From Pseudoxanthomonas mexicana (GTDB taxonomy: Bacteria; Pseudomonadota; Gammaproteobacteria; Xanthomonadales; Xanthomonadaceae): a stretch of 64,000 bases of DNA. The notes under the pieces were generated by a model. It saw only the letters and a program-made list of their open reading frames with translations. It ran no database searches and had not been told where the DNA came from. Location: contig NZ_LSIF01000028.1 of assembly GCF_001556105.1 (NCBI RefSeq), positions 53,898 through 117,897 of the forward strand, in the 5' to 3' direction. Position numbers and translations under genes: made by a program. Shown here piece after piece: positions 3,960-36,873 of this stretch. Within the stretch, counting starts at the first letter, position 1, and the number at the start of each line of letters is the position of its first letter.

Positions 3960-6436
3960 GGGGGCGGGGTCGACAGCGGCGGAAGCAGTGGTCGACCCAA
4001 TTGCTGCGCGGCGTAGCCTTGCAGTGCCATGCGGGCACGCGCGTACTCCGCGATGACCAGCGCCACGGCCACGGCCGGGCGTTCCAGCTTGCGGGCGCGG
4101 GCACCCAGCTCCACGCGCTTGGCGGCCGCCGACAACGCCATGGCGCCGACGTTCGCGCTGGATGACTTGAGGGTATGCGCTGCATCGCGCATCGCATCCA
4201 GGTCGGGTACGGCGGCGGCCTTCTCCAGCGTGCCGATCAGGCGCGGGGCGTCTTCCAGGAAGATGGTGATGATGCGCGTCGTTTCGTCGCCCGCGATCTC
4301 GCGCAGTTCCTCCAGCATGGTCTGGTCCAGTACCGGGAAGCTGGGTGCGGGCGAACGCGCCGTGGCTACGGCAGGCGCGGGCGGGGCGGGTTCCGCTGGG
4401 GTAACAAGTGCGGCGTTGCGCAGCACGAAGTTCATGCGATCGGGCAGCCATCGGTGCAGGCAGCTCTCGAGTTGCTCGCGCGAGACCGGCTTGGCCAGAT
4501 AGTCGTCCATGCCAGCGTCAAGGCAACGCTGGCGATCGCCTGCCATGGCATTGGCGGTCATCGCCACGATGGGCAGGCGGCCGCCATCGGCGCGCTGCGC
4601 TTCCAGTTCGCGCCAGCGCCGTGTCGCGGCGTAGCCGTCCAACACCGGCATCTGGCAATCCATCAGGATCAGGTCGAAGTGCTCTAGCTGCATGCGCTTC
4701 AGCGCAATGTCGCCGTTGGCGGCAGTCTCACAGTTGAAGCCGAGGGCGGACAGCAACTTCTGCGCCACCAGCAGGTTGACCGGATTGTCTTCCACCAACA
4801 ACAGGCGTGGTTCTGTGCGCATGGCACTGACGACGGCAGGCTCAGGTTCCGTTGCGACGGCAACGTCGGCCGGGGCAGCAACGACTGCGACAGGCACGCT
4901 TGATGTTTCGTTCGCATCAAACGCAGGCGAAGCATCATCACCGGCTGAGCCTAGAAGGCTGGGTGACTCCGGGAAGATCTCTTCCAGCGCGGCAGTGTCG
5001 GCGACAGGCTCCGGCTCGGGTGTGGCGCCCGTCAACGCGGCGCGCAGGTCCGCGTCGGGTGATTGTCGCGACAGCAGTGTGCTGCGTGGATGGAGTTCCG
5101 CGGGGACGGTCTCGTCGCCGTACAGCCACAGCAAGCGCAGCGTGTCTGGCAAGGGGCGGCGCGCGATGGCCCGATGCAGCGCCAGCGCGGTGCTGCGGAT
5201 GCCACCAATGTCAGCCAGTACCGCCAGGTAATCCTGCTGCCCCTGTTCGCCGACGAGGCGCAGGCGATCCAGCGCCTCCTGCGTCGTCTCGACGGCGACA
5301 GGTTGCATGCCCCAGTTGGTGGACAGCAGTGTGAGGCGTTGGCGCAGCCGGGCATCCGGCGACACGATCAGCACACGGCCATGGTCCAGCACGCCGTTGT
5401 CACGCTGTCGCAGGTCGCCGATGACTTTCATCAAGGGCGCTTCGAACCAGAACGTGGAGCCACGGCCCACCTCCGACACGACGTCGATGCGACCACCCAT
5501 CAGATCGACGATGCGCCGGCAAATCGCCAGTCCCAGCCCGGTGCCGCCATACAGGCGCGTGGTCGAGGCGTCGGCCTGGCTGAAGGAATGAAACAGGCGA
5601 TGGCGCGCATCCTCTTCGATGCCGATGCCGGTGTCGCGCACCTCAAACCGCAGCAGGTGCTGCGCAGCGGTTTCACCCAGCCGGCGCACTACAATGGTGA
5701 CCGTGCCGCGCTCGGTGAATTTGATCGCGTTGCCGACCAGATTGGTCAGCACCTGGCGCAGGCGCACCGGGTCGCCACGCACCGGCAGGCGCACGGCCGG
5801 GTCGAGCTGCAGGCTGAGTCGAAGGCCCTTGTTCTCCGCCGGTCGATACATCAACTGCAGCACGCTGTCGAGCAACTCGCGCAGGTTGAAGCCGGTGATC
5901 TCCAGGTCGAGCTTGTTGGCCTCGAGCTTGGAGTAGTCGAGGATGTCGTCGACGATCCGCAGCAATTGATGGGATGACGCGGTCGCCGTCGTCAGCATCT
6001 CGCGCTGGTCGGGCGCCAGCGGTGCGCGCGACAGCATTTCCAGCATCGGCACGATGCCGTTGAGCGGGGTGCGGATTTCGTGGCTCATCGTGGCCAGGAA
6101 TTCGCCTTTCGCCATCGCGGCGGATTCGGCCGCCTGCTTGGCGCGCAGCAATTCCTGCTCAAGGCGGTCATGCCGCTGGAGGTCGCGCTGCAGCCCGTCG
6201 CGTTCGGATTCGGCCATCGCCGCACGCGCCTGGATCCCGGTATGACGACGCGCGTCGACGCGCGTGTGCCAGGCGGAGGTGAAGGCGCCCAGCAATCCTG
6301 CGGTGCCGCTGCCGGTGGCCACCTGCAACCAGGGGCCGGCGATGCCCGCCCAGTGCAGGCCCAGCGAGGCCACCGAGACGGTGGCGCATGCCACCGTCAC
6401 CCAGGGCATCACCGGCATGCGACCGGTCGAGGGCAT
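3932..6436 (-). CDS. Hybrid sensor histidine kinase with receiver and Hpt domains
   Basis: An 834-residue phosphorelay protein of BarA-like layout. Two hydrophobic segments (about 10-55) are followed by a coiled linker, a HisKA domain with His119 in the SHEIRTPLN box, and an HATPase domain with N box near 232-238 and GTGLGL at 299. A receiver-like region at 353-470 looks degenerate. A proline/alanine linker follows, then an intact receiver (543-660, phosphoacceptor Asp593, Lys649) and a C-terminal Hpt domain with His754 in [13 protein letters not shown]. There is no periplasmic sensor domain to speak of, so the signal may be cytoplasmic or membrane-borne. It starts 3 bp after the stop of the upstream REC-GGDEF-EAL gene and is surely co-transcribed with it, which makes that receiver a plausible phosphate acceptor. 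Confidence 0.88.
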
Positions 6437-32894: not shown

Positions 32895-33503
32895 ATGCAC
32901 ACCTCCCTCATCATCGTCGACGACTTCCTCGGCCAGCAGGACGCGTGGTCGCTGCGCGATGCCGCGCTCAAGCTGGCCTACCCAGATCTGAAGGGGCCGT
33001 TCCCCGGGCGCAATTCGCTGGAGCGGATCGAGATGGAAGGGCTGTCCGAGATCGCGTCGCACCTCACCGGCGAACGCCTGAAGCCGATCAACCCGCTGCA
33101 GTCGCATGGCAAGTTCCGCATCACCCTTGCCTCGGATGTCGGTAGCGCGAAGGTCCACATCGACCAGGCGTACTGGTCGGGCATCCTCTACCTCAGCCGT
33201 CCCGAGGATTGCCGCGGCGGTACCGAGTTCTTTCGCCATCGCCCTTCGAACCGCGACCGCGCACCGATCAACGATGCGGAACTGGCGGAGATGGGGTTCT
33301 CCTCGCATGCGCAGATGCACCAGGAGATCATCGAGAAGCACAGCAACGACGACAGCATGTGGGAGCCCGCCATGCAGGTGCCGATGCGCTTCAATCGGCT
33401 GGTCCTGTTGCGTCCGTGGCTGTGGCACACCGCGGGGCCTGCGTTCGGCAGCACGATGGAGGATGGGCGGCTGGTTTACCTGATGTTCTTCACCGCAGCC
33501 TGA
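32895..33503 (+). CDS. DUF6445 family protein, putative Fe(II)/2-oxoglutarate-type dioxygenase
   Basis: A 202-residue protein. A His-X-Asp pair in KVHIDQAYWSGILYLS and a later histidine in LRPWLWHTAGPAFG, with an arginine nearby, form the arrangement expected of the double-stranded beta-helix dioxygenases, and GGTEFFRHR resembles the sheet between them. The family assignment is from memory of such sequences; the substrate is unknown. It sits between the groEL terminator and the DAHP synthase leader and is probably transcribed alone. Confidence 0.65.
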   Translation: MHTSLIIVDDFLGQQDAWSLRDAALKLAYPDLKGPFPGRNSLERIEMEGLSEIASHLTGERLKPINPLQSHGKFRITLASDVGSAKVHIDQAYWSGILYLSRPEDCRGGTEFFRHRPSNRDRAPINDAELAEMGFSSHAQMHQEIIEKHSNDDSMWEPAMQVPMRFNRLVLLRPWLWHTAGPAFGSTMEDGRLVYLMFFTAA

Positions 33504-33568
33504 GCGGGCGATCGTCCGTTGCCGATGAAACATTCGACAAGCATCACGATGCATGGCCCAATGCCGAT

Positions 33569-33652
33569 GTGAACACCGTTTGCGCCCGCTATTGGTTTTG
33601 GTACGAAGGCTTTCCGATGCCAGCGGCGGACGCGAGGTTGCATTCATTCTAG
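33569..33652 (+). CDS. Aromatic amino-acid leader peptide of the DAHP synthase attenuator
   Basis: A 27-residue frame from GTG at 33569 to TAG at 33650. Codons 8-12 (33590-33604) read Tyr-Trp-Phe-Trp-Tyr, followed by Glu-Gly-Phe, so six of eight consecutive residues are aromatic. It ends 25 bp before a strong terminator hairpin and 72 bp before the DAHP synthase start. This is the design of ribosome-mediated attenuation: a ribosome stalled at the aromatic codons for lack of charged tRNA would free the leader to form an antiterminator. The GTG has no good Shine-Dalgarno; an eight-codon mini-frame (33549-33572) ends on top of it. No other start for a short frame exists. Confidence 0.75.
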   Translation: MNTVCARYWFWYEGFPMPAADARLHSF

Positions 33653-33677
33653 GCAAGACCCCAGAAGAATCCCTTGA

Positions 33678-33705
33678 AGCCGCCAGCGAAACTGGCGGCT
33701 TTTTT
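33678..33705 (+). terminator. Attenuator terminator upstream of DAHP synthase
   Basis: A 9-bp perfect stem (AGCCGCCAG / CTGGCGGCT, loop CGAAA) followed by TTTTTT, ending 19 bp before the ATG at 33725. Segments in the leader at 33623-33629 (GCGGCGG) and 33608-33612 (GGCTT) are complementary to its left arm and could form a competing antiterminator; CCGCT (33586-33590) can pair with AGCGG (33622-33626) as a pause hairpin. Confidence 0.8.
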
Positions 33706-33724
33706 GTTGACCCGGAGAACCCCG

Positions 33725-34804
33725 ATGGCCCCCCATACCGACGACCTGCGCATCCGCAAACTCGATGAGCTGGTGACGCCTGCCGCCGTGATCGGCGAAC
33801 TGCCCTGCGACGACGTGGTCTCGCAGACCGTGTCCGATGCGCGCGGCGCGCTGCACGACATCCTGCACGGCCGCGACGACCGCCTCGTCGTCGTGATCGG
33901 GCCGTGCTCGATCCACGATCCTGCATCGGCGATGGATTACGCCCGCCGGTTGAAGCCGCTGCGCGACGCGCTGGCCGATGATCTCGAAGTCGTGATGCGC
34001 GTGTACTTCGAGAAGCCGCGTACCACGGTCGGCTGGAAAGGCCTGATCAACGATCCGGCCCTGGATGGCAGCTTCGACATCAACCGTGGCCTGCGCCTGG
34101 CGCGCGGGCTGCTGCGCGACATCAACGCGCTCGGCCTGCCGGCAGGCTGCGAGTACCTCGATACCATCTCGCCGCAGTACATCAGCGACCTGGTGGCGTG
34201 GGGCGCGATCGGCGCGCGTACCACCGAGAGCCAGGTGCACCGCGAAATGGCCAGCGGCCTGTCGTGCCCGGTCGGCTTCAAGAACGGCACCGACGGCAAC
34301 GTCAAGATCGCAGTGGACGCGGTCGGCGCGGCCTCGCATCCGCATCATTTCCTGGCGGTGACGAAGGAAGGCCGTTCGGCCATCGCGGCGACGGCGGGCA
34401 ATCCCGATTGCCACGTGATCCTGCGCGGCGGCAAGGCGCCCAACTACGATGCCGCGAGCATCGACGCCGCCAGCCAGGTGCTGGTGAAGTCGGGACTGTC
34501 GGCGCGCCTGATGGTCGATGCCAGCCACGCCAATAGCGGCAAGAACCCGGACAACCAGCCGGCCGTGATCGACGACATCGCCGCGCAGCTGGAGGCGGGC
34601 GAGCGCCGCATCGTCGGCGTGATGGTGGAAAGCCATCTGATTGGCGGGCGGCAGGATCTGGTCGATGGTCAGCCGCTGACGTACGGGCAGAGCATCACCG
34701 ACGGATGTCTCGGATGGGAGGCGTCGGTGCAGGTGCTGGAGCGTCTTGCCGTGGCGGTACGCACGCGCCGCCAGCGTGGCGACGCGGCGGTGCAGGCGGC
34801 CTGA
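33725..34804 (+). CDS. 3-deoxy-7-phosphoheptulonate (DAHP) synthase, class I
   Basis: A 359-residue enzyme joining phosphoenolpyruvate and erythrose 4-phosphate, the committed step to tryptophan, tyrosine and phenylalanine. AroF/AroG-type motifs are intact: VVVIGPCSIHDP, MRVYFEKPRTTVGWKGLINDP, GARTTESQVHREMASGLSCPVGFKNGTDG and MVDASHANSGKN. Feedback specificity (AroF, AroG or AroH type) cannot be told by eye. The ATG at 33725 follows CGGAG. It is preceded by a leader peptide and terminator, so transcription is probably controlled by charging of aromatic tRNAs. Confidence 0.95.
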   Translation: MAPHTDDLRIRKLDELVTPAAVIGELPCDDVVSQTVSDARGALHDILHGRDDRLVVVIGPCSIHDPASAMDYARRLKPLRDALADDLEVVMRVYFEKPRTTVGWKGLINDPALDGSFDINRGLRLARGLLRDINALGLPAGCEYLDTISPQYISDLVAWGAIGARTTESQVHREMASGLSCPVGFKNGTDGNVKIAVDAVGAASHPHHFLAVTKEGRSAIAATAGNPDCHVILRGGKAPNYDAASIDAASQVLVKSGLSARLMVDASHANSGKNPDNQPAVIDDIAAQLEAGERRIVGVMVESHLIGGRQDLVDGQPLTYGQSITDGCLGWEASVQVLERLAVAVRTRRQRGDAAVQAA

Positions 34805-34906: not shown

Positions 34907-35338
34907 ATGTTCCGTCCCAAACACTACGCGTTGTCGCTCGCCCTTGTGCTGGCCTGTTTCGGCGCCTTCCATGCGCAGGCCGCCGATCTCACCGTCACCC
35001 TGCACGATGTGCGTGCCCAGTCCGGCGTGCTGAAGCTCGCAGTCGTCGATTCGCAGGCCGCTTGGGACGGACAGGCGAAGCCCATACAGGCCGATGGCGC
35101 TCCGCCGCAGGGCAACGTGGCGACGTTCGTGTTCAAGGGTCTGGAGCCGGGTGCCTACGCCGTGCTGGTGACCCATGACGAGAACGGCAACGGCACGCTC
35201 GACAGCAACATGATCGGCATGCCGATCGAGGCCTACGGCTTCAGCAACAATCCCAACGTGATGCGCAAGCCGACCTGGGACGAAGCCCGTTTCGACGTCG
35301 GCGCGCAGGATGCCGCCATCGACATCACCCTGCGTTGA
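34907..35338 (+). CDS. DUF2141 family exported protein
   Basis: A 143-residue protein with a signal peptide (cleavage after AQA, about residue 25) and a single beta-sandwich domain with the DUF2141 pattern: GVLKLAVVDS, PPQGNVATFVFKGLEPGAYAVLVTHDENGNGTLD and PIEAYGFSNN. Function unknown; members are often next to carotenoid or membrane-lipid genes. It is 11 bp upstream of the carotenoid oxygenase gene and clearly in the same operon. Confidence 0.87.
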   Translation: MFRPKHYALSLALVLACFGAFHAQAADLTVTLHDVRAQSGVLKLAVVDSQAAWDGQAKPIQADGAPPQGNVATFVFKGLEPGAYAVLVTHDENGNGTLDSNMIGMPIEAYGFSNNPNVMRKPTWDEARFDVGAQDAAIDITLR

Positions 35339-35349
35339 GGAGCCAGGCC

Positions 35350-36873
35350 ATGGACCGCCGCCGCTTCCTGCGCACCCTGTTGTCCGGCGCCACCGCGCTT
35401 GCCGTCGCGCCGGCTCTGCTGCGCAGCGAGTACGCATTCGCCGGGGATCCCGGCAAGTTTGCGGCGGGCCTGCGCGAGCAGCCGTGGCTCGCCGGCTGGA
35501 GATCCGTGCAGTCTGAAACGCTGGGGCCGGCGACTGTACAGCTCGAAGGCCGCTTGCCGTCGGGCTTCACCGGCACGCTGTACCGCAACGGGCCGGCATG
35601 GACGGAGCGTGCCGGTTTCCGCTACGAACACTGGTTCGACGGCGACGGCATGGTGCACGGCTGGCGCTTCAACGGCGACGGCACGCTGAGCCACCACGCG
35701 CGCATGGTCGCCACGCCCAAGTTCACCCGCGAGCAGAAGGCCGGGCGCTTCCTGTATCCGACGGCGGGCACGTCCATTCCCGACATGCAGCCGATCCGCA
35801 ACAACGACGACGCGAACACGGCCAACACCTCGGTCACCATGATCAACGGCCGATTGTTCGCGCTCTCCGAGGCGGGCTCCGCGTTCGAACTGGATCCGGA
35901 TGCGCTGACAACGCTTGGCCCCGTGACGTGGCGTCCCGACCTGGCCGCCATTCCGTTCTCCGCGCATCCGCTGGTGGATCGCGATGGCTCGTCATGGAAT
36001 TTCGGCTCCATCTCGATGATGGGCGGCAACGGCCTGGTGGTGTGGCACATCGGTCGCGATGGCACGCTGGCGTCGGCCGACGTGCTGGAGACGCCGGTGC
36101 CGGGTTACCTGCACAGCTTCGCGATGACCGACCGGCATCTGGTCTTTGCACTGATTCCGTTCCGCTACATCGAAGGCAAGGGGGCGTTCTTCGAACGCCT
36201 GCGATTCCAGGCGGACCAGCCGCTGCGCGTGGCCGTGGTCGACAAGGCATCGCCGTCGAAGGCGCAGTGGTTCGAGGCCGACTTCGCCGCGATCTACCAC
36301 TTCGGCGATGCATGCGAACGCGATGGCCGCATCACGGTGCGTGCCGTGCAGCACCTCGATCTGGAGGAGGCGCGTTCACCGATGAAGGCGGCGATGAATG
36401 GCGACGCGCACGGCGCGGCGCATGGTGGCAAGGGCCCGCTGCGTGAGCTGGTGCTGGATCTGCGCAGCGGCAAGGCGCACTGGGAAGACACGGGCATCGC
36501 CGGCATCGAGTTCCCGGTATTCGATGCCCGCACGCCGTCGCGCGACGCGGCGCGCCTGTACGCACCGATCCATGCCGATGGCTCGACCGCACCCTACTTC
36601 AGCCGCATCGGCGCCTTCGACCTCAAGCGCGGTGGACGCCAGGTGTACGACTACGGGCGCGACGTGCTGGTGGAGGAGCACCTGTTCGTGCCGCGTCCCG
36701 GCAGCACGCGTCCGGATGACGGCTGGCTGGTCGGCACGCTGCTCGATGCGGCCAAGGGCCGCAGCGGCATCGCCGTGCTGGATGCACGGCGCGTGGGTGC
36801 CGGTCCGCTGGCGCAGGCGTGGCTGCCGTACACGGTGCCGCTCGGCTTCCACGGACACTTCGCCGCGCGTTGA
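35350..36873 (+). CDS. Carotenoid oxygenase family protein (TAT-exported)
   Basis: A 507-residue non-haem iron dioxygenase of the carotenoid/stilbene cleavage family. An N-terminal twin-arginine signal (MDRRRFLRTLLSGA, cleaved near AFA) is unusual among characterised members, most of which are cytosolic. The four iron-binding histidines can be placed in FSAHPLVD, YLHSFAMTD, IYHFGDACE and the final FHGHFAAR. YRNGPAW near residue 80 and the EHLFVPRPG segment also fit. The substrate is not evident; an outer-layer pigment or an aromatic alkene is possible. Operon with DUF2141. Confidence 0.88.
   Translation: MDRRRFLRTLLSGATALAVAPALLRSEYAFAGDPGKFAAGLREQPWLAGWRSVQSETLGPATVQLEGRLPSGFTGTLYRNGPAWTERAGFRYEHWFDGDGMVHGWRFNGDGTLSHHARMVATPKFTREQKAGRFLYPTAGTSIPDMQPIRNNDDANTANTSVTMINGRLFALSEAGSAFELDPDALTTLGPVTWRPDLAAIPFSAHPLVDRDGSSWNFGSISMMGGNGLVVWHIGRDGTLASADVLETPVPGYLHSFAMTDRHLVFALIPFRYIEGKGAFFERLRFQADQPLRVAVVDKASPSKAQWFEADFAAIYHFGDACERDGRITVRAVQHLDLEEARSPMKAAMNGDAHGAAHGGKGPLRELVLDLRSGKAHWEDTGIAGIEFPVFDARTPSRDAARLYAPIHADGSTAPYFSRIGAFDLKRGGRQVYDYGRDVLVEEHLFVPRPGSTRPDDGWLVGTLLDAAKGRSGIAVLDARRVGAGPLAQAWLPYTVPLGFHGHFAAR

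Follow-up and report, generated by a model that had tools for sequence, protein, structure and literature searches.

A candidate ribosome-mediated attenuator with clustered aromatic codons upstream of class I DAHP synthase genes in Xanthomonadaceae and other Proteobacteria

Introduction

Control of the entry step of aromatic amino-acid biosynthesis is usually told from the enteric repressors TyrR and TrpR. The hisL attenuator shares with trpL and pheL a run of regulatory codons and the segment logic, and the ilvGMEDA leader of E. coli illustrates that, where a pathway branches, codons for more than one of its end products may stand in a single leader; the latter differs from the case considered here in that it concerns branched-chain amino acids and no DAHP synthase (DAHPS). 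At a locus of Pseudoxanthomonas mexicana, a short open reading frame (ORF) with clustered aromatic codons and a terminator-like hairpin lies ahead of a gene for a class I DAHPS. This arrangement raises the question of whether transcription of the gene is controlled by attenuation and, if so, which amino acids are sensed.

Here, we discuss a stretch of 64,000 nucleotides (referred to as the window), for which an initial annotation, made from the sequence alone, had proposed that one leader senses all three aromatic amino acids and gates the common first step of the pathway. We consider the leader to be a ribosome-mediated transcription attenuator (trp/phe/his type) of the class I DAHPS gene, with a probability of about 0.88.

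Results

Leader ORF and controlled gene

The elements from which the argument starts are the following (a candidate role is implied by the words "sensor" and "controlled"):

33569..33652, + strand: leader ORF with GTG start, 27 codons and TAG stop at 33650-33652, read from the sequence
33590..33604, + strand: sensor codons 8-12, Tyr-Trp-Phe-Trp-Tyr (TAT TGG TTT TGG TAC), from the sequence; the cluster is conserved in relatives
33725..34804, + strand: class I DAHP synthase gene, the controlled gene (PF00793, TIGR00034)

The frame reported in the initial annotation, including a further Phe at codon 15 (TTT, 33611-33613), matches the sequence base for base, i.e., a short ORF with clustered codons of the pathway end products precedes the gene. 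The GTG start that had been assigned at 33569 is borne out by an alignment to other Xanthomonadaceae (34 aligned rows), in which every row has ATG or GTG in the start column and the start, the aromatic run, the GGCGG segment and the terminator are conserved. In the same alignment, all 20 gap stretches inside the leader ORF (several shared by descent) are 3, 6 or 9 nt long. Third codon positions (variability 0.21) are barely more variable than first and second positions (0.195 and 0.183), possibly owing to RNA pairing, which would act as a further constraint on the codons. A second short frame, from ATG at 33525 to TGA at 33570-33572, overlaps the leader start (ATGTGA).

When both strands of the window were scanned for at least four aromatic codons in seven, within a short frame 40-130 nt upstream of a strong terminator, the leader was the one place found. 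None of 3000 sequences simulated with a first-order Markov model of a 614-base string, built from the leader region, had the same arrangement, nor did any at a threshold of five codons.

The gene product belongs to DAHP_synth_1 (PF00793, E 3.9e-93) and scores above the cut-off of TIGR00034 (aroFGH); a Shine-Dalgarno-like GGAG is found at 33714-33717, ahead of the ATG. Directly upstream of the DAHPS leader lies a DUF6445 gene (32898-33503), preceded by ORFs that we take to be groES and groEL, while the region downstream of the DAHPS gene (34907-36873) encodes a DUF2141 protein and an RPE65-type (carotenoid oxygenase-like) protein.

The proposal that the leader gates the common first step has to be narrowed, as the class I enzyme does not stand alone. 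A class II DAHPS (PF01474) is found in 387/390 genomes sampled from the Xanthomonadaceae-type family, so that the class I enzyme, where present, is generally a second isozyme rather than the sole entry; the source genome of the window presumably has its own class II gene. The idea that the class II enzyme is under the same control was discarded, as five consecutive T were not seen in the 600 nt upstream of any of the 8 loci examined; in these eight loci, three aromatic-rich frames were seen about 470-570 nt upstream.

Terminator and alternative pairing

The RNA between the leader start and the gene can be divided into four segments in the manner of known attenuators:

33580..33600, + strand: segment 1, bounds approximate, overlapping the sensor codons (minimum-energy folds)
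33612..33636, + strand: segment 2, bounds approximate, with the antiterminator core GCGGCGG at 33623-33629 (folds; core in relatives)
33676..33686, + strand: segment 3, the terminator left arm, also the partner of segment 2 (folds, terminator scan)
33692..33705, + strand: segment 4, the terminator right arm plus T run (folds, terminator scan)

An intrinsic terminator, GAAGCCGCCAG-CGAAA-CTGGCGGCTTT, is located between the leader ORF and the structural gene at 33676-33702. It is composed of 9 bp plus two A-U pairs, and the six T at 33700-33705 are followed by exactly 19 nt to the ATG at 33725. The sequence agrees with the earlier description on these points, and a terminator scan gives the same hairpin, which alone folds at -19.3 kcal/mol. 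The 206-nt leader folds better than its shuffles (z -2.05; 6/200 shuffles equal or better). Segment 1 pairs with segment 2 in RNA lacking the terminator left arm and also in the full leader, which in the window folds as 1:2 plus terminator at -58.3 kcal/mol.

Alternative structures had been anticipated, and folding does predict an antiterminator pairing that excludes the terminator, at about -25 kcal/mol for the whole antiterminator fold. The leader segments said to be complementary to the terminator left arm are represented by GCGGCGG (33623-33629), which matches CCGCC.GC (33680-33687), but the longest unbroken match is 5 bp.

The GGCGG core is found at similar spacing in relatives across families. 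In many of these, Pro-Leu-Ala-Glu codons (CTGGCGGAG) copy the terminator right arm and would thus constitute the antiterminator segment. In the 110 loci that have both cores, the base pairs adjoining the terminator core are retained in 110/110 and 105/110 despite changes on both sides (outer pairs G-C and A-T; inner A-T, G-C and T-A). For the 2:3 pairing, one of the same flanks is paired in 44/110 loci vs 37.8 expected (8/5000 shuffles) and the other in 74/110 vs 68.7 (30/5000), where the shuffles ignore kinship among the 110 loci. These comparisons suggest that the terminator arms covary and that the 2:3 flanking pairs covary weakly; the GGCGG:CCGCC core cannot itself show covariation because the search demanded its presence. 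The comparison for covariation was made across families because RNAalifold, applied to the family alignment, returned essentially the terminator plus a 3-bp stem, with two-sided change in 1/14 pairs.

Simulated ribosome stalling

To model stalling, equilibrium folds were calculated on the assumption that the edge of the ribosome lies 13 nt from the first base of the A-site codon, for 83 rows that represent 77 distinct loci (L081-L086 are repeats); pairing of the left arm with any partner upstream, and not just with segment 2, enters the measure. In the window, a stall at Phe10 or Glu13 lets GCGGCGG (33623-33629) pair with CCGCC.GC (33680-33687) in an interrupted fold. Averaged over the 83 rows, the antiterminator probability relative to its maximum stays at 0.89-0.94 while the stall lies between 10 codons ahead of the last clustered aromatic codon and that codon itself, with values of 0.93-0.94 within the aromatic run and 0.89 at its last codon, and falls to 0.61 two, 0.47 three and ~0.2 at 12-14 codons after it. 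Permissive codons make up 512/555 of the aromatic vs 495/1369 of the other codons in the same rows; the count starts nine codons ahead of the last clustered aromatic codon and ends just beyond the stop, and so takes in a few codons outside the ORF. In the window the left-arm pairing past the run is uneven (0.55 at Phe15, 0.46 at Pro16, 0.72 at Met17, 0.28 at Pro18, 0.62 at Ala19 and 0.08 at Ala20). In silico, stalling at the sensor codons is thus predicted to free the antiterminator, and passage to the stop is not.

In ribosome-free window RNA up to the terminator loop, the antiterminator fold is obtained (0.63 of a maximum of 0.72), and in ribosome-free RNA the antiterminator is under one half in 25/83 rows (equilibrium folds). 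Because the antiterminator wins without a ribosome, the untranslated state would depend on 1:2 forming first and holding.

Distribution in relatives

One genome per species was scanned, and the best 80 of at least 589 confirmed DAHPS stretches formed the set of named loci. Among these 80, a leader with terminator is found upstream of 42 (strict script), 46 (looser script) or 50 (by eye, the reading used for the tree labels below). The holders in this set include Xanthomonas, a Stenotrophomonas MAG, Dyella, Rhodanobacter, Burkholderia, Caballeronia, Paraburkholderia, Cupriavidus, Massilia, Rugamonas, Janthinobacterium, Bradyrhizobium, Mesorhizobium, Devosia, Methylosinus and Leisingera. Leaders of the same layout are located ahead of the DAHPS gene in Rhodanobacteraceae, Burkholderiaceae, Oxalobacteraceae, Rhizobiales and Roseobacteraceae. 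Citrobacter, Erwinia, Pantoea, Pectobacterium, Photobacterium, Chitinimonas, Rhodocyclus, Thauera and Methylotenera are labelled as without a leader among the best 80. No leader with terminator was found at six enteric class I loci (L065, L068, L075, L077-L079), although two of these, L077 and L079, show a frame rich in aromatic codons but no detected terminator.

A census was made in the family of [Pseudomonas] boreopolis (genome G002, locus L003), which served as the Xanthomonadaceae-type centre. With at most five candidates scored per genome, the class I gene is present in 158/395 family genomes, and all 30 census loci taken (L088-L117) carry the leader. A covariance model, R1, was built from 34 of 38 prepared rows (L105, L115 and L116 were omitted as near-copies, and L111 was also omitted) and searched in 390 genomes, taken as the same 395 less five. 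It matches 152 of the 153 class-I-positive genomes at E<1e-10; these matches are partly non-independent because at least 28 of the 152 genomes supplied sequences to R1. In the sole exception (G287) the enzyme match starts only at residue 30. None of the other 237 genomes has a match at this threshold; 31 of them have weak matches (best E 8.1e-6), where eight first-look candidates were scored per genome and weak matches may be lost. In the eight best-scoring rows, compared by eye, the match ends 17-51 nt ahead of the gene match. The search was also used for a possible regulon of other leader targets, in 16 re-searched genomes with five strong matches set aside. This idea was dropped because the other 32 matches are weak, scoring no more than 29.3 bits (best E 8.1e-6), and many of them cover just the terminator.

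In a sample of the phylum, a class I match at E<=1e-60 is found in 225/398 genomes. Upstream regions were inspected for 88 of these loci (28 new ones, L162-L189, the next 40 by rank save G540, and 20 hand-picked from lower rows); two returned loci, L104 and L082, were already in the earlier set. A leader with terminator is present in 38/88 regions, i.e., in 27/28 where the enzyme is at least 66% identical to that of the window and in 11/60 below this value. Leader ORFs with hairpins outside the search acceptance at L240, L241 and L245 are additional to the 38. By eye, L173 and L030 appear to lie directly after another coding frame and have no leader. At L240, L241, L245, L247 and L248 (60-64% identity) a differently worded leader (FYFWFS.PGGR or similar) with CCGCCG-armed hairpins is seen, perhaps a second leader subtype. 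In a MAG labelled Anaerolineae (Chloroflexota), an aromatic-rich ORF (RYFSFFSWYGYF) and a long GC hairpin precede the DAHPS gene (L051, counted as without leader in the tree labels); the arrangement may reflect transfer, misbinning or a wider family.

A quick maximum-likelihood tree was calculated for 111 enzymes, of which 79 were labelled as having a leader and 32 as lacking one. The label changes nine times on this tree vs a shuffled mean of 27.9 (0/500 shuffles as low), and on one branch (SH-aLRT 93, not starred) 77/84 rows are leader-labelled; the starred branches force just three label changes. No leader was seen for Undibacterium (L045), which is found within the leader clade. The pattern fits inheritance of the leader with the DAHPS gene plus losses, and on this comparative basis suggests an old, widespread starvation-sensing switch in many proteobacteria.

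Promoter region

An additional conserved element is found upstream of the leader:

33518..33531, + strand: imperfect palindrome GTTGC-N4-GAAAC, candidate regulator site, starting 51 nt upstream of the leader start

The pattern GTTGC-N4-G[AC]AAC begins 51-55 nt ahead of the leader start in 36/40 Xanthomonadaceae loci, and some Xanthomonas loci have a longer palindrome; elsewhere in the window, the pattern is matched once more, at 4851. Its conservation at an activator-like place makes it a possible activator site.

In 33 of the same 40 loci a TGnTAT[CT] box, resembling an extended -10 element, ends 7-10 nt upstream of the leader start codon. A transcript starting from such a box would begin at or next to that codon, and the leader ORF is probably leaderless in most Xanthomonadaceae loci. 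The box is absent in the window and in L088, L089, L091, L093 and L101, and the L111 stretch is incomplete; the window's own subclade has GGCCCAAT in place of the box (region 33545-33571 of the window), a sequence read in the window and in L088, L091, L093 and L101, and L089 has GGCTCAAT. No sigma-70 consensus pair was found in 33440-33760. By eye, Rhizobiales and some betaproteobacterial loci have a similar box spacing, and Burkholderiaceae and Oxalobacteraceae do not. The probable leaderless ORF and the conserved palindrome are new beyond the initial annotation.

Which amino acids are sensed

Residues were counted over 12 codons from the start of the cluster in the loci listed for this purpose. 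Phe, Tyr and Trp are all found in the cluster in 35/35 Xanthomonadaceae, 3/3 Rhodanobacteraceae, 11/11 Rhizobiales and 9/10 Burkholderiaceae, and these counts favor joint sensing in most families. In Xanthomonadaceae, a lack of Phe, of Tyr or of Trp would presumably each suffice to open the gate, and the anatomy of the window leader fits the earlier suggestion that all three aromatic amino acids may be sensed.

The attenuator could also be keyed to one residue (Trp or Phe), the other aromatic codons being bystanders, a variant that is compatible with attenuation as such and that we regard as possible, though not favored. Not every codon of the run has to act as a signal, as the Phe-Tyr-Phe leader peptide AroR of C. 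glutamicum is reported to answer Phe limitation and not Tyr limitation (PMC11802643). In the Xanthomonadaceae alignment the central TGG (codon 11, 33599-33601) hardly varies, and all ten named Oxalobacteraceae leaders counted have Phe and Tyr alone, without Trp. Against a single key residue stand the retention of three residues in the four groups above, the varying identity of the aromatic residue at codons 8 and 9, and the presence of Trp in L167, which groups with Massilia in the tree. Moreover, stalls at each of the clustered aromatic codons give a nearly equal antiterminator probability.

A more encompassing view, which we hold tentatively and at somewhat less than even odds, is that of an ancient attenuator family, inherited with one class I DAHPS clade in Alpha-, Beta- and Gammaproteobacteria, in which one ORF, often leaderless, would serve as a pan-aromatic OR gate.

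Proposed mechanism and alternative explanations

We propose a three-way transcription attenuator in which RNA polymerase transcribes the 27-codon ORF. When aromatic aminoacyl-tRNAs are plentiful, the ribosome would reach the stop codon and cover segment 2, such that segments 3 and 4 would form the terminator and transcription would stop ahead of the DAHPS gene. A ribosome stalled at the Tyr-Trp-Phe-Trp-Tyr run (or at Phe15) would instead cover segment 1 and leave segment 2 free to capture segment 3, i.e., to form the antiterminator, and the gene would be transcribed. Without translation, 1:2 would pair first and the terminator could form, which is the least supported step. The locus has the ORF, the terminator, the conserved antiterminator core and their spacing, and in silico also the stall geometry; translation of the leader, termination and read-through, and the response to tRNA charging are what we infer.

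A different possibility is that the leader mainly yields a small RNA or peptide acting in trans, attenuation being secondary. A precedent is found in rnTrpL/peTrpL of Sinorhizobium meliloti, and the probably leaderless small ORF with its own terminator resembles trpL of that organism as portrayed in PMC10117765 and PMC7298713. However, at E<1e-10 the R1 matches are confined to genomes with the class I gene, which is what control in cis predicts, and we consider a mainly trans-acting leader unlikely. If the leader were simply an untranslated 5' region whose terminator protects the gene against read-through, the ORF would be incidental; no Shine-Dalgarno sequence is found upstream of the GTG at 33569 in the window, as such a reading would allow. 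The frame-preserving gaps, the conserved start and aromatic run, the similar GGCGG spacing across families and the Markov result above make this explanation very improbable. The position and the terminator alone would also suit a metabolite riboswitch or a T-box element, but Rfam offers no support: at the gathering threshold the whole window yields one tRNA and nothing else, the two matches in 33500-33760 are on the minus strand and far under the gathering score (E 0.29 and 0.35), and none was found in 15 related loci. We give this possibility almost no weight. Five of the leader peptides were compared with NCBIfam and Pfam, and none of them matched a known leader-peptide family. On balance, attenuation by ribosome stalling remains the preferred reading of the locus.

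Discussion

Relation to known systems

The kind of system is known, while this DAHPS leader family appears to be new. The closest described case is the aroR leader before aroF, the DAHPS gene of C. glutamicum, for which attenuation was reported (Neshat et al. 2014, as cited in PMC11802643 and PMC4046766). There too, a leader peptide with aromatic residues precedes a DAHPS gene and attenuation occurs by ribosome stalling; aroR differs in that it is actinobacterial, has Phe-Tyr-Phe only and is reported to respond to Phe and not to Tyr (PMC11802643), a comparison made by description. The enteric trpL and pheL attenuators share the run of regulatory codons, the 1:2/2:3/3:4 logic and the terminator before the first structural gene (PMC11802643). 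In contrast to the leader discussed here, with three aromatic kinds, trpL, pheL and hisL each concern one amino acid.

In Acholeplasma, the uORFC-13-1 motif before aroF is a predicted upstream ORF with at least one Phe codon (24 examples), and it resembles the present leader in having a terminator before a DAHPS gene; the part of PMC8632094 seen makes no mention of a run of three aromatic kinds. The trpL RNA of S. meliloti starts at the AUG of trpL, according to PMC10117765 and PMC7298713, and offers a parallel for a leaderless leader ORF in an attenuator (probable here); it is a Trp attenuator that controls trpE(G). A Shewanella screen lists aroF with a note of an attenuator sensing tyr-tRNA, citing E. 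coli work (PMC2659441), and the main text of a survey of premature terminators contains no aroF, aroG, DAHP or aromatic (PMC2965389).

The initial view that the control system is little described needs correction in so far as attenuation of DAHPS has been described in C. glutamicum and predicted in Acholeplasma. For the proteobacterial DAHPS leader family, no report was found in the open-access literature searched. Comparative-genomics studies of proteobacterial attenuators reportedly appeared in about 2001-2004.

Implications

Because the covariance model performs well within the family, the element could be annotated. If the proposed mechanism is correct, the leader would constitute a natural biosensor for aromatic supply and offer a handle for engineering of shikimate-derived products. 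One leader would cover up to three amino acids and provide a testable case of a multi-signal attenuator. As an OR gate, it would raise the level of the pathway entry enzyme whenever Phe-, Tyr- or Trp-tRNA alone ran short. Many Proteobacteria, including plant-associated and soil genera, would then control a DAHP synthase by the supply of aminoacyl-tRNA instead of by such repressors as TyrR and TrpR.
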